The position numbers were made by a program, and so were the translations under genes. A stretch of 51,437 nucleotides of DNA from Vulcanimicrobiota bacterium (GTDB lineage: Bacteria > Vulcanimicrobiota > Vulcanimicrobiia > Vulcanimicrobiales > Vulcanimicrobiaceae), in NCBI GenBank assembly GCA_003151115.1, contig PLWS01000001.1, forward strand, positions 1 through 51,437, given 5' to 3'. This document shows positions 2,334-19,551 of this stretch, piece after piece. The notes under the pieces are model-generated. The model ran no database searches. It was given only the letters and a program-made list of their open reading frames with translations, and was not told where the DNA came from. How positions within the stretch are numbered: position 1 is the stretch's first letter; each line of letters begins with the position of its first letter.

Positions 2334-3449
2334 GTGACGATCTCGCTCGCCGTTCTCTTCGCGCTGTTTGGCGGCGTGGCCGCGGGTGCCGCGATTATGT
2401 GGTTTGCCGCGGGACGGCTCAAAGCCGAACTGCACGAAGCTAACGCGCGCGTAGCCGAAATGCAGCGCGACTCATTCCTGACCCTCGCCAACGAAAAGTT
2501 TGCGGCGATGGTTTCGCCGGTTCAGCAGAAGCTGACCGAGTTCGATGCGCTCGTTCGCGAAATGGAAGAAAAGCGCGCCGGCGCCTACGAAGGCCTGCGC
2601 GAGCAAATAACCGGACTCATCGATCGCAGCGGCAAGATGGAAACCGCCGCAACGCAGCTCTCCGCCGCGCTGCGCAATCCGACGACCCGCGGAAAATGGG
2701 GCGAGATCCAGTTGCGGCGCGTCGTCGAACTTGCCGGCATGGAAGCGTACTGCGATTTCGGCGAGCAGCAGACGCTGCAAACCGGAGAAGATCGCGGACG
2801 CCCCGATCTCACCGTGCAGCTTCCCGGAAACTCGCGCATCTTCGTGGATGCGAAGGTTCCGCTCAACGCCTTTCTCGAGGCCGTCGAGCTTCCCGACGAA
2901 GCCGGCCGGCGCGAACGCTTTCGCGCGCACGCCGCCGCTTTCAAGAATCACGTCGATCAGCTGGCGCGGCGGAACTACCAGCGCGCCGAACGTTCGGCGG
3001 ATTTCGTCGTGATGTTCGTGCCGGGCGAAGCGTTCCTGAGCGCCGCTTGCACCGAGAATCCCGATCTCATCGAATACGGCGCCGGCAAAGACGTCTACAT
3101 CGCGAGCCCGCTCACGATGATCGGCCTGCTTCGTTCGTACGCGTTGGGCTGGCAGCACCGGCAGCAGGAAGAGAACGCAAAAAAGATCGCGGAAGCCGCG
3201 CGCGTGCTCTACGATCGCGTGCGTGCGTTTGCCGGACATATCGCGTCGATCGGCGCGAGCCTCGAGAAAGCCGTCGGCGCCTACAACAGCGCGGTCGGAT
3301 CGATGGAGAGCCGCGTGCTGCCGCAGGGCCGCAAGATCCGCGAGCTTGCCTCGCTGCCCGACGCGGAGCTTCCCGAACTCGTGCCGGTGGAGCTCGCGAC
3401 GCGCGAAATCACCGCGCTCGACGCGCAGCAGCGCAAGAACGCCGGCTAA
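2334..3449 (+). CDS. rmuC: DNA recombination protein RmuC
   Basis: A 371-residue protein with an N-terminal transmembrane helix (residues 2-24), a coiled-coil segment to about residue 110, and the RmuC nuclease-like core. Core landmarks are RGKWGEIQLRRVVELAGM, PDLTVQLPG, FVDAKVPLNAF and SPLTMIGLLR. RmuC limits inversions and recombination at short inverted repeats in E. coli and has a predicted restriction-endonuclease-like fold; its molecular activity is poorly known. The GTG at 2334 is the only start that keeps the membrane helix. It lies 16 bp after the hydrolase stop, so co-transcription is possible. Confidence 0.93.
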   Translation: MTISLAVLFALFGGVAAGAAIMWFAAGRLKAELHEANARVAEMQRDSFLTLANEKFAAMVSPVQQKLTEFDALVREMEEKRAGAYEGLREQITGLIDRSGKMETAATQLSAALRNPTTRGKWGEIQLRRVVELAGMEAYCDFGEQQTLQTGEDRGRPDLTVQLPGNSRIFVDAKVPLNAFLEAVELPDEAGRRERFRAHAAAFKNHVDQLARRNYQRAERSADFVVMFVPGEAFLSAACTENPDLIEYGAGKDVYIASPLTMIGLLRSYALGWQHRQQEENAKKIAEAARVLYDRVRAFAGHIASIGASLEKAVGAYNSAVGSMESRVLPQGRKIRELASLPDAELPELVPVELATREITALDAQQRKNAG

Positions 3450-16598: not shown

Positions 16599-17726
16599 TC
16601 AAGCGTTGCCCAAAACGCCCCGATCTTTTTGCGCGTAGACGTTGAGCAGAACGCCGATGGCGGCAAAGTCCGTCAGCACCGCCGAGCCGCCGTACGACAA
16701 GAATGGCAGCGGTATTCCCGTTATCGGCATGATGCCGATCGTCATGCCGATATTGACGACGATGTGAAATGCGAACATGGCGACGATTCCACTTGCGAGC
16801 AAGAACCCAAAACGATCGCGCGCACTTATCATTGCGATGACGCCGCCGAAGAGCAACACGCCGTAACACGCCAGCAGCATTACGGTCCCGACGAATCCCA
16901 GCTCTTCTCCGACGACGGTAAAAATGAAATCGGTCGAGTGTTCGGGCACGAAATTCAACTGCGTCTGCGTGCCGTGATGCAAGCCGCGGCCGAACCAGCC
17001 TCCGCTGCCGACCGCGATCTTCGACTGGTTTAAATTGTAGCCGGCGCCTTGCGGATCGGCCTTGGGATTGAGGAAGATCAGCAGACGGGCTTTCTGGAAA
17101 GGCTTCAGGATATATTTGGTTTCGATCGCGAACGCCATCGCCGCCGCGCCGGCCAGCGCGTAGGCGGCGAAGTGCTGCCACTTCGGCAAACCGAAGAACA
17201 ACTGCGCGCTCATGATCGCCATGAAGACGAGGGCCGTGCCGAGGTCCGGCTGTTTGGCCACGAGCAGCGCGGGGACGGCGACCATCAGCAGCGGTTTCCA
17301 CAACTCGGTCAGCTTCGTGTACTCGCCCTTGCAGAGTACCCACGCGATCGAAATTGCGAGAATGAGTTTTGCCGGCTCCGACGGTTGAAACGTGCCGAGC
17401 GGGCCGAGGCTAATCCAGCGCTGCGCGCCGTGAGACGAGTGTCCGCCGCGAAGGATGAATGCGAGCAGCAGCAATGTTACGACGTATAACCCCGGCGCCC
17501 ACTTGGAGAGATCGCGGTAGTCGATGCGCGAGAAACCTATCATCACGCCGATGCCGAGGATCGCGTAGAGTATTTGCTTGCGGTACTCGCCGGGGTCCGT
17601 GTGCAAACCCGCAGACTGAATGATCACGATGCCGAATGACGTTACGAGAAGCGCGGCCACGACCAAGTACCAATTGACCCGGCCGGCATACCGGCGCGCC
17701 TGCGCGCCGAACGTCATGGTAGCCAC
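16599..17726 (-). CDS. rodA: Rod shape-determining protein RodA
   Basis: A 375-residue SEDS-family polytopic membrane protein, the glycosyltransferase that polymerises peptidoglycan strands for elongation with a class B PBP. Landmarks are GAQRWISLGPLGTFQPSEPAKL, KQPDLGTALVF, NQSKIAVGSGGWFGRG, PEHSTDFIFTVVGEELG and GIPLPFLSYGGSAVLTDFAAIG. The length and motifs fit RodA better than FtsW. The start is GTG 17726 or ATG 17717, both just past the stop of the upstream VOC gene. The usual mreBCD and mrdA neighbours are absent. Confidence 0.93.
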   Translation of the reverse strand: MATMTFGAQARRYAGRVNWYLVVAALLVTSFGIVIIQSAGLHTDPGEYRKQILYAILGIGVMIGFSRIDYRDLSKWAPGLYVVTLLLLAFILRGGHSSHGAQRWISLGPLGTFQPSEPAKLILAISIAWVLCKGEYTKLTELWKPLLMVAVPALLVAKQPDLGTALVFMAIMSAQLFFGLPKWQHFAAYALAGAAAMAFAIETKYILKPFQKARLLIFLNPKADPQGAGYNLNQSKIAVGSGGWFGRGLHHGTQTQLNFVPEHSTDFIFTVVGEELGFVGTVMLLACYGVLLFGGVIAMISARDRFGFLLASGIVAMFAFHIVVNIGMTIGIMPITGIPLPFLSYGGSAVLTDFAAIGVLLNVYAQKDRGVLGNA

Positions 17727-17728
17727 TG

Positions 17729-18112
17729 CTATTCGATCCGTTCGCTAAAGACGATCTGGTTATTGAAAGGATCGACGACGCAGAGGTCGCGCGTTCCCCA
17801 CTCCTGCGTTTGGATGCCGGGATTCATATATTTGTATTTCTTGACAGCCAACTCGGCATGCAATGCGTCGACTCGGTCCATCTGGATGATGACGTGCGTT
17901 CCAGGGGTTCCGTCGCCGTGATGCTCGCTCAAAAACATCACCAGGTCGTCGCGCGATATTCCCATGAACAGCGGAGCAGTGTCGTGGAAGCGGTGTTCGA
18001 AGTCCACCTTAAACCCGAGATAGTCCAGATAGAACTCGCGCGCCTTGACGACATCGAAGATCCGCAAGATGGGAATCAAACGCTTGAGCGTTATTTGGCT
18101 GTTTTCGGCCAT
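17729..18112 (-). CDS. Glyoxalase/bleomycin-resistance (VOC) family protein
   Basis: About 127 residues with the VOC beta-alpha-beta-beta-beta pattern: IPILRIFDVVKAREFYLDYLGFKVDF, then LVMFLSEHHGDGTPGTHVIIQ and GTRDLCVVDPFNNQIVF. The wording and length are close to the single-module glyoxalase-superfamily proteins often labelled bleomycin resistance. The substrate is unknown. A GTG at 18121 is an alternative start. A possible -10 hexamer TATGAT lies about 40 nt upstream on the minus strand. It lies 3 bp before rodA and may be co-transcribed with it. Confidence 0.85.
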   Translation of the reverse strand: MAENSQITLKRLIPILRIFDVVKAREFYLDYLGFKVDFEHRFHDTAPLFMGISRDDLVMFLSEHHGDGTPGTHVIIQMDRVDALHAELAVKKYKYMNPGIQTQEWGTRDLCVVDPFNNQIVFSERIE

Positions 18113-18220
18113 TAAAGGCACCGCTTCTCATCGCGTCTCCCTAAATCATACTTGCCTGCCCAATCTTGCATTGCAGGGGAGCAAATGATACGCTGGCGTC
18201 GCGTCTGAGGTCCCGTGTCA

Positions 18221-18251
18221 CAAAGAGCCGCTCGTTAAGAGCGGCTCTTTG
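18221..18251. terminator. Strong bidirectional hairpin terminator
   Basis: A perfect 13-bp stem, CAAAGAGCCGCTC and GAGCGGCTCTTTG, with a 5-nt loop GTTAA. It lies 22 bp beyond the stop of the small minus-strand gene ending at 18274. The T-run is short (TTTG), so termination is likely but not certain. Confidence 0.8.
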
Positions 18252-18273
18252 CTTGAGGGTAGCCGGCCGAGGC

Positions 18274-18492
18274 TCAGGACGTTTCTTCACAATAAAGCTC
18301 GTCAGAGCCAAACGAATACGGAACGGGAACGTCGTTCTCGCTATCCAGGCGGAAAATCGAATCGTAATCGCCGTTAAAATCAGGGAGACGCACGATCTCG
18401 CGAGCGTCACGGTCGCGCGCAGCGGCCGTTTCGTATGGCCCTTTGGCTTCCGCGTCCACGCCCGAGCCTATGATCAGGTTGTAATACTTCAC
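18274..18492 (-). CDS. Small acidic hypothetical protein (72 aa)
   Basis: Starts at GTG 18492 with GAGAGGA about 7 nt upstream, and ends 22 bp before a strong hairpin terminator, so the gene looks real. The protein begins KYYNLIIGSGVDAEAKGPY, then has a charged helix (ARDRDAREI) and an acidic C-terminal half (YDSIFRLDSE, GSDELYCEE). No membrane segment or signal is seen. It resembles small uncharacterised proteins that also begin with a K-Y-N-L-I strand, but I cannot name a family. It is divergent from the nuclease-like gene across 86 bp and could be its functional partner, which is only inferred from location. Confidence 0.65.
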   Translation of the reverse strand: MKYYNLIIGSGVDAEAKGPYETAAARDRDAREIVRLPDFNGDYDSIFRLDSENDVPVPYSFGSDELYCEETS

Positions 18493-18578
18493 GATCCCGT
18501 CCTCTCGAAAAAAGAGATCCAGGATCCCGCAAACGGGCCGTACTAACCTCCTCGCTCACTGCAATAGGAGTGCCGAGC

Positions 18579-19043
18579 GTGGACGGACCTACGAAGAATC
18601 TTAAAAGCGACGTACTCGCCAAGCAGGCGTATTGTGCTGACCTACTCAAGCGCGGCTTCTCGAATCCAAAGGTGATCGGATCGCCTTCCGATGTCACCGC
18701 GGAAAAAGACGGCGCGATCTGGTATTTTGAGATCAAGTGCACGCGTAAGAAAGACAAATACTTCGGTGCAGCCACGTTAACCGAATGGATCCAGGCGGCG
18801 AAAGATCCACGGCATTTTCGCTTTGTCGTCGCGTCGGAGAATGACGGTCTATGGCTGTTTCAGGAGTACGATCCGGAGACGTTCATCGGACATAGCTATA
18901 TCCCGCCATTCAAAATCTACTTCAACGTGATGATGAAGCCCGAACAAATTATCAAGTCCAGGCGTCAATCCACAAGCGTTCCGATGACGCTGGAACGCTT
19001 AAGACAGATGGAAGAGCTGTACCGAGCTTTCAAGAAAACGTAA
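18579..19043 (+). CDS. PD-(D/E)XK-like nuclease-fold protein
   Basis: About 154 residues. The GTG at 18579 is chosen because AGGAG lies 8 nt upstream; the GTG at 18570 is too close to it. The core SDVTAEKDGAIWYFEIKCTRK supplies Asp38 followed by Glu51-Ile-Lys53, the D...ExK pattern of restriction-endonuclease-like folds. After it comes RFVVASENDGLWLFQEYDPETF, as in DUF3883-like nuclease-fold domains. A role in DNA processing or defence is possible but not shown. Base composition is less GC-rich than the neighbours, and the gene is bounded by a hairpin terminator and a repeat-like segment, so recent acquisition is possible. Confidence 0.65.
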   Translation: MDGPTKNLKSDVLAKQAYCADLLKRGFSNPKVIGSPSDVTAEKDGAIWYFEIKCTRKKDKYFGAATLTEWIQAAKDPRHFRFVVASENDGLWLFQEYDPETFIGHSYIPPFKIYFNVMMKPEQIIKSRRQSTSVPMTLERLRQMEELYRAFKKT

Positions 19044-19061
19044 GTCTAAATAAACTCCACT

Positions 19062-19147
19062 GCCTCGCTGGCCTCGACCACGCTCACTCCGTTCGCTGCT
19101 CGGCCGTGGTTCGACTGATGCGCCTTTCGGCGCATCGCTCACCATGA
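19062..19147. repeat. Intergenic repeat-like element with perfect hairpin
   Basis: Contains a perfect 8-bp hairpin GATGCGCC-TTTC-GGCGCATC (19117-19136) and a longer imperfect inverted repeat (TCGACCACG with CGTGGTTCGA) just upstream, ending in CACCATGACA. The design (GC-rich nested hairpins ending in a TGACA-type edge) is like the other intergenic repeats here, but sequence identity to them is limited. It may also terminate the gene ending at 19043 and the min operon. Confidence 0.5.
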
Positions 19148-19158
19148 CAAAGCGGGAG

Positions 19159-19551
19159 CTAAGTAGCTGGTGCCGGAGCTCCATTGCCGGACGGACCCGA
19201 TTGCGCGAGCCCCGGCTGCGTCGGTTGCAGCGAACGTTTTTTGCGGCGGCGGCGGCGCGGCGGTCCGGCCGGCGGCGACGGCGTGCGGTTCACAGAAATG
19301 ATCGGCACGTTGGCAAGCATCGCGAAGACGCTGTCTTGGTGTTCGAAGCGCACGTCGATTTTGTCGCGATCGACCTCCATATAACGCGAGACGACCGCAA
19401 CGAGATCTTGCTTCATTTGTTCGACCATATCGGGCGCGAGCGATAGATGATCGGACATCAGCACCAAGCGCAGCCGCTCTTTGGCGGTTTCGCCCGATTT
19501 TTCGCGGCCGAATAGGCGGCTCAGATTGTTGAAAACATCGGTGAAGGTCAT
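19159..19551 (-). CDS. minE: Cell division topological specificity factor MinE with basic C-terminal tail
   Basis: A 130-residue protein. Residues 1-12 form the membrane-binding N-terminus (MTFTDVFNNLSRLF). The MinD-interacting segment is AKERLRLVLMSDHLSL, and the topological domain is DMVEQMKQDLVAVVSRYMEVDRDKIDVRFE through VFAMLANVPII. Beyond about residue 92 there is an extra tail with a run of Arg/Lys (RRRRRKKR) followed by a Pro/Gly/Gln-rich end; typical MinE stops near residue 90. MinE drives MinD ATP hydrolysis and the pole-to-pole pattern. It overlaps the second minD by 4 bp and is last in the operon. Confidence 0.93.
   Translation of the reverse strand: MTFTDVFNNLSRLFGREKSGETAKERLRLVLMSDHLSLAPDMVEQMKQDLVAVVSRYMEVDRDKIDVRFEHQDSVFAMLANVPIISVNRTPSPPAGPPRRRRRKKRSLQPTQPGLAQSGPSGNGAPAPAT

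Follow-up and report, generated by a model that had tools for sequence, protein, structure and literature searches.

A divergent gene pair in the 51,437-nucleotide stretch of DNA analysed here (the window) reads best as a horizontally swapped, restriction-like nuclease gene that lies without an adjacent methyltransferase and is locally controlled with an acidic small protein, a reading to which we give about an even chance of being right. The plus-strand gene (positions 18579..19043, 154 aa, GTG start) would yield a small, metal-dependent PD-(D/E)XK nuclease, most likely a DNA-cutting, restriction-like defence enzyme. The minus-strand gene (18274..18492, 72 aa, GTG start) would encode an acidic protein that, within the limits of the search, is linked to the nuclease in this one genus alone and that most likely tunes it. 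The two genes, referred to below as the islet, diverge from an 86-bp intergenic region (18493..18578), as the initial annotation had described. Both are under protein-coding constraint: dN/dS between congeners amounts to 0.06–0.12 for the nuclease (four pairs compared of ten possible) and to 0.17–0.21 for the acidic gene in three of these four, the remaining pair having saturated synonymous sites.

Translation from the GTG at 18579, the likely nuclease start, gives 154 residues and the numbering Asp38, Glu51 and Lys53 for the D...ExK residues. A GTG start recurs at the same alignment column in the nearest relative, and an AGGAG at 18566..18570 on the plus strand, read from the sequence, is the likely ribosome-binding site of the gene; an alternative frame from the GTG at 18570 (157 aa) overlaps it. 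The three residues, already named in the initial annotation, are invariant in all 17 rows of the family alignment and likewise in 16 of 16 rows of a second alignment, and the 17-row alignment also contains an FGAATxTEW block and a PPFK block. An AlphaFold model built with 16 rows (pLDDT 85.4, pTM 0.80) displays an alpha-beta-beta-beta-alpha-beta core (H10-24, E39-43, E46-55, E60-65, H67-75, E80-88), so that both the core topology and the D...(D/E)xK residues of the PD-(D/E)XK class are present. Foldseek returned the Holliday-junction resolvase Hjc 1gef as best match (E 3.6e-4), and the 14 matches at E ≤ 0.001 comprise 13 Holliday-junction-resolvase chains and one SPARDA chain, with modest TM-scores against Hjc (0.40–0.49 by query length). 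VIA-align, in which rows within 1 Z unit count as tied, superposes the model on archaeal Hjc (2wcw_B; Z 10.7, rmsd 2.5, 101 residues), the SPARDA nuclease chain (Z 9.7, rmsd 4.0, 111 aligned), the homing enzyme I-Ssp6803I (Z 9.0, rmsd 2.6, 103 aligned) and NhoI (Z 8.9, rmsd 3.1, 104 aligned). The nuclease-like fold suspected for the larger protein is thus upheld by the structural model, which places it firmly in the PD-(D/E)XK class.

At family level, the protein appears to lie between NOV_C and Hjc, reaching neither cut-off, and it would come closest to being a divergent NOV_C branch. At E ≤ 1, NOV_C matches 16 and Hjc 13 of the 17 family members, the best NOV_C match having an E-value of 2.8e-6. 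The window nuclease itself scores 19.1 bits against NOV_C (PF13020), below the gathering cut-off of 22.1, and no match to Hjc (PF01870) is listed for it at E ≤ 10. The NOV_C match covers the D...ExK region and the T-E-W block that follows. In passages of two papers this domain, also named DUF3883, is treated as a restriction endonuclease domain: it is called "a novel REase domain" (PMC3710099) and listed as "(presumably) DUF3883" among Type II endonuclease groups (PMC10609329). Unlike NOV_C, the window nuclease is a free-standing protein of 154 aa with its own PPFK block and a C-terminal helix. With archaeal Hjc it shares the fold and the D...ExK residues, but identity in the fold alignments is only 10–17%, and the window protein is bacterial, patchily distributed and extended by the additional C-terminal helix. 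A search of its own genome with the family gave nothing at E ≤ 0.001, and at E ≤ 10 no entry of NCBIfam, PADLOC or PHROGs matched the nuclease or the acidic protein. The nuclease family is small and spans seven bacterial groups, and its member in the window stays below every curated cut-off of the libraries that were searched.

The acidic protein of the window (pI 4.1, charge about −9.5) has four congener versions that are 55–72% identical, and is predicted, with low to medium confidence, to form a beta-beta-alpha-beta-beta arrangement. Of the fold checks that the initial annotation suggested, the one on this small protein gave five models, of which two are fair (76.5 and 73.1) and three poor (39–43). 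Searched for a fold shared with acidic DNA-mimic inhibitors, these weak models retrieved no PDB chain at Z 5 and none above Z 4.8, the phage antitoxin Dmd reaching only Z 3.5–3.6. Across the five pairs known, net charge ranges from −6.3 to −9.5 for the acidic protein and from +2.8 to +5.7 for the nuclease, and such opposite charges would allow the acidic protein to inhibit the nuclease by binding to it. A basic nuclease is not peculiar to the pairs, since partnerless members of its family range from −4.4 to +10.8.

The intergenic region contains a 13-bp near-palindrome, GATCCAGGATCCC (18516..18528), that is identical in the gap of all five pairs. Only 23 of the 72 other ungapped columns in the gap alignment are invariant, and an invariant run of 13 arose in 4 of 20,000 permutations. 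In the window the element precedes the acidic start by 23 nt and the nuclease start by 50 nt. A 12-bp form, GATCCAGGATCC, is present as a single copy in four islet genomes and as two copies in G004, where the second copy sits within another reading frame, and it was not found in G001, G003 or G050 (such labels designate the genomes and bins compared, G000 being the genome with the window). Among 86 loci, the 11-bp core is confined to the islet loci and to this second place in G004. Most simply, a near-palindrome between divergent genes is a candidate operator shared by both, and a leader hairpin of the acidic gene is the other role it might have; as an alternative to direct inhibition, the acidic protein may therefore act in expression control at this element. 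Other roles were considered and set aside. A terminator on the acidic strand would fit the six T that follow the element in the window and in G004 alone, and mostly C and A stand there in G002, G005 and G006, so that we reject a general role of this kind. Nor does the element give a hint of a cut site, as the window contains 10 GGATCC sites against 9.0 expected and thus shows no avoidance. An AACCT block before the nuclease gene is conserved, and RNA folds of the five sequences around a supposed ribosome-site hairpin before this gene were no better than shuffles (z −1.5 to +0.9), so that this hairpin was set aside as well. No sigma-70-type promoter was found in 18100–19160.

Within the genus, the survey of co-occurrence agreed with the pairing that the initial annotation had proposed: in five of the seven genomes both genes are present, adjacent and divergent, and the remaining two have neither, so that the genes are linked in every genome of the genus that contains either one. 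Outside the genus the pairing did not hold. Among 149 genomes of the phylum, the nuclease occurs in six and the acidic gene in five, the sixth nuclease being that of G050, which lacks the acidic gene. Of 116 candidate stretches scanned in public genomes, 15 proved to be nuclease loci: four belong to the genus, and 10 other assemblies contribute the remaining 11. The hosts of these 11 loci are Clostridia, Nitrospirales, several Bacteroidota, SAR86, Hydrogenedentota and Gastranaerophilales. In these 10 assemblies and G050, the acidic profile has no match at E ≤ 0.001 (0 of 11 genomes, some of which may be incomplete assemblies), and the sub-threshold matches there (E 0.58 and 1.8) fall inside frames of 449 and 483 codons. 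As far as was searched, the partnership is therefore a feature of the genus and not of the nuclease family. Twelve phage and plasmid records (nine and three, respectively) matched the nuclease at E 2 or more and were dropped, and no match was obtained in viral contigs with either the first or a larger alignment as query. Literature searches on DUF3883/NOV_C, Eremiobacterota defence, defence-island resolvases, nuclease/antitoxin/DNA mimic and PD-Lambda-5 gave no title or abstract opening that describes the pair.

Relatives of the acidic protein are likewise found away from the nuclease. Distant ones turned up in two genomes among 395 from the phylum to which the Nitrospirales genome belongs (E 2.8e-11 and 5.6e-10), and another lies C-terminally in a protein encoded by the Geoalkalibacter plasmid pGSUB1 (E 1e-3 in tblastn with the G002 query); at E ≤ 0.001 the nuclease was not found in the three genomes or records outside the genus that bear such relatives. 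Of the two contigs from that phylum, one looks phage-like from its neighbours: its 75-aa acidic relative (L084 5027-5254) lies close to SbcC- and SbcD-like PHROGs matches and to what we take, by eye, to be dUTPase- and ribonucleotide-reductase-like genes. Nine phage records that matched the acidic protein (E 0.04 to 10) were dropped, the best of them, S-B64, being inside a larger gene. The distant relatives as queries gave no phage match, and the acidic protein itself had none in viral contigs. Three of four plasmid matches were dropped at E 4 or more, the Geoalkalibacter match was retained, and further plasmid searches with acidic relatives returned this same record and nothing else.

Several distant nuclease loci lie among genes of defence type, judged on neighbours that were chosen by eye (20 of them for Pfam), with no baseline of random loci for defence genes. 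In G050 (L070 2156-3763), the nuclease is directly preceded by genes for an XRE-type regulator and for a 391-aa protein whose type IV restriction match is weak (E 0.005); the Nitrospirales locus has a PD-Lambda-5_A-like protein (E 4e-17) and methyltransferase genes, and a Schlafen-group-3 helicase (E 7e-69) is encoded at one Prevotellaceae locus. Related AAA ATPases accompany the nuclease in Bacteroidales and at one Gastranaerophilales locus, the latter ATPase matching IetA, and the Hydrogenedentota locus holds what by eye are presumably PIN- and AbrB-like toxin-antitoxin genes. A DnaB-like helicase was seen on the Prevotella contig and a transposase at the other Gastranaerophilales locus, and no defence-type neighbour was recognised by eye at the Clostridia, SAR86 and two Bacteroidota loci (4 of the 12 distant loci). 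Overlap between neighbourhoods is limited to the AAA ATPase and to the two Gastranaerophilales loci of one assembly, apart from a short stretch of methyltransferase similarity that links the Nitrospirales locus with contig C19 of G005. Nuclease-antisense frames ignored, no small neighbour common to the distant loci was found. The Clostridia locus starts 64 bp after a tRNA-Val gene; in the 13 other loci scanned, no tRNA gene lies beside the nuclease.

In the genus, the islet is cargo of a slot whose content varies between congeners. One edge is formed by a gene that we recognise by eye as minE-like (19159..19551, minus strand) and the other by a RodA/FtsW-like gene (16599..17726, minus strand); a further slot gene (17729..18121, minus strand) is VOC (glyoxalase)-like. 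The islet is present in the slot of G000, G002, G004, G006 and contig C15 of G005. G003 has 243 bp between minE and rodA and no islet, and in G007 and G009 minE adjoins rodA. G004 keeps the islet and lacks the VOC gene, which is also absent from the G003 slot. On contig C19 of G005 (L063 1184-2963) the slot holds no islet and instead an N6/N4 methyltransferase (PF01555, E 6.1e-54) and a BglII-family endonuclease (PF09195, E 8.6e-10). With two contigs containing the slot region and a stated contamination of 5%, this bin probably combines two populations, represented by C15 and C19. The slot is a site in a little-studied phylum at which congeners carry different cargo, a restriction system among it. 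The islet shares with this Type II restriction-modification system the slot and the broad nuclease fold class, but its nuclease has no BglII-family match and no methyltransferase at its side, the neighbours in the window being the acidic, VOC- and minE-like genes. Of the initial suggestion of a toxin-antitoxin or defence-like pair, the defence setting is made plausible by the BglII system in the same slot, and the toxin-antitoxin part is weakened, as discussed below. A VOC-like gene lies elsewhere in the genome of G001 (L060 / L065 2831-3172), in a match with an in-frame TAG. The G008 slot (L072 2383-3266) contains a further frame, by eye presumably an AlkB-type oxygenase-like gene.

Comparison of G000 and G002 points to exchange of the islet. 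Their DNA is 46–61% identical across the islet, mostly 83–93% in the flanks and 74–80% in the VOC gene, and their nucleases share about 42% protein identity. Because this divergence is embedded in similar flanks and dN/dS is low, the difference looks like replacement rather than slow drift. In a tree of 17 nucleases the genus falls into two groups, which none of 200 bootstrap trees joins, and a single genus clade, imposed as a constraint, was rejected at AU p 0.028 with all 17 rows and at 0.036 with 15 after removal of two long branches, in a test chosen after the identities had been seen and on a tree with six inner branches unresolved. Between G002 and G006 (L069 about 2425-3025, against L068), the nuclease and gap are 97–99% identical in surroundings of 83–94%; another patch of 96–99% lies outside the islet, so that ordinary recombination can explain the first. 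Taken one step further, these patterns would fit a compact restriction-like module of a new type, with a single PD-(D/E)XK nuclease and no adjacent methyltransferase, in which the acidic protein checks or switches the nuclease via the 13-bp element, one regulator serving interchangeable nucleases, and the slot would keep the acidic gene kind and the control element while nuclease versions exchange. We regard this extended form as tentative and rather unlikely. If the acidic protein does control the nuclease, the pair would show on a small scale what keeps a nuclease safe when no methyltransferase accompanies it.

Two other explanations turn on the relationship between the genes. In a classical toxin-antitoxin system the nuclease would poison the cell that makes it, with the acidic protein as cognate antitoxin. 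The strict linkage in the genus (5/5), the opposite charges in every pair, the shared 13-bp element and the patchy presence argue for it, and the islet resembles Type II systems as a small two-gene unit with opposite charges and a shared control region. It differs from them in that its genes are divergent rather than co-directional and that the acidic partner was not found outside the genus; where an antitoxin should accompany its toxin, it does so in 0 of 11 genomes (assemblies may be incomplete). A nuclease alone in that many hosts makes an obligate antitoxin role unlikely, the distant loci have no common small neighbour, and acidic relatives exist without the nuclease. We consequently disfavour an obligate pair and hold the system as a whole to be improbable, although the acidic protein may still inhibit the nuclease. 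The absence of either family beside the other outside the genus would also suit two unrelated hitch-hiking genes that are adjacent by descent in one genus and have no joint function, the more so as the five pair-bearing genomes are congeners and thus not independent. What this account leaves unexplained is that two nuclease types, about 42% identical, both keep a divergently oriented acidic gene and the same 13-bp element, while the flanks have stayed mostly 83–93% identical in DNA; it has, in our view, a minor but real chance of being correct.

The remaining alternatives concern the nuclease by itself. It could be an Hjc-like, structure-specific junction or repair nuclease that spread as a single gene, with the acidic neighbour a passenger or regulator. 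Archaeal Hjc is its closest solved fold, the best PDB sequence match of the family profile is Hjc 1gef (weak, E 0.16), 13 of 17 members show the Pfam Hjc similarity given above, and the gene is solitary in other hosts. A presence in 6 of 149 phylum genomes nevertheless seems too patchy for a core repair enzyme, NOV_C matches more members than Hjc does, and the N-terminal Glu of Hjc, which is catalytic, is unmatched in the profile-Hjc alignment; this role is therefore unlikely, though worth keeping in mind. More remote still is a selfish, homing-like nuclease whose gene would propagate through cleavage of either an empty minE-rodA slot or an alternative allele. The rank of I-Ssp6803I, a PD-(D/E)XK homing enzyme, among the best fold matches, the near-identical G002/G006 patch and the split of the genus in the nuclease tree are consistent with it; distant homologues, however, lie among unrelated neighbours, the second G002/G006 patch is outside the islet, and the one-clade test was made with the identities already seen. 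We retain the locally controlled, horizontally swapped restriction-like nuclease as preferred reading.

The composition and borders of the islet were also revisited. Its low GC was confirmed: the nuclease gene has 50.3% and the acidic gene 54.8%, compared with 62.4% for the window, and only 0.04% of 774-bp windows reach a GC content as low as that of the islet; the VOC-like neighbour is also low, at 52.7%. Downstream of the acidic gene, a hairpin with perfect 13-bp arms (18221-18233 and 18239-18251) and a 5-nt loop occupies 18221..18251 and is more stable than shuffles (z −5.7 and −7.1). The initial annotation had called it a terminator; the hairpin stands, and the function is unproven, given that a T-tract is absent on both strands and that a terminator scan did not include it. 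No known RNA families or tRNAs were detected in the window. Just past the nuclease gene, the repeat-like sequence noted earlier proved to be a dispersed element (19056..19160), which, counting itself, has 22 or more matches in the genome, a lower bound obtained from 40 of 60 candidates scored. These matches are roughly 50–85 bp long, and 12 of them lie on contig C8.
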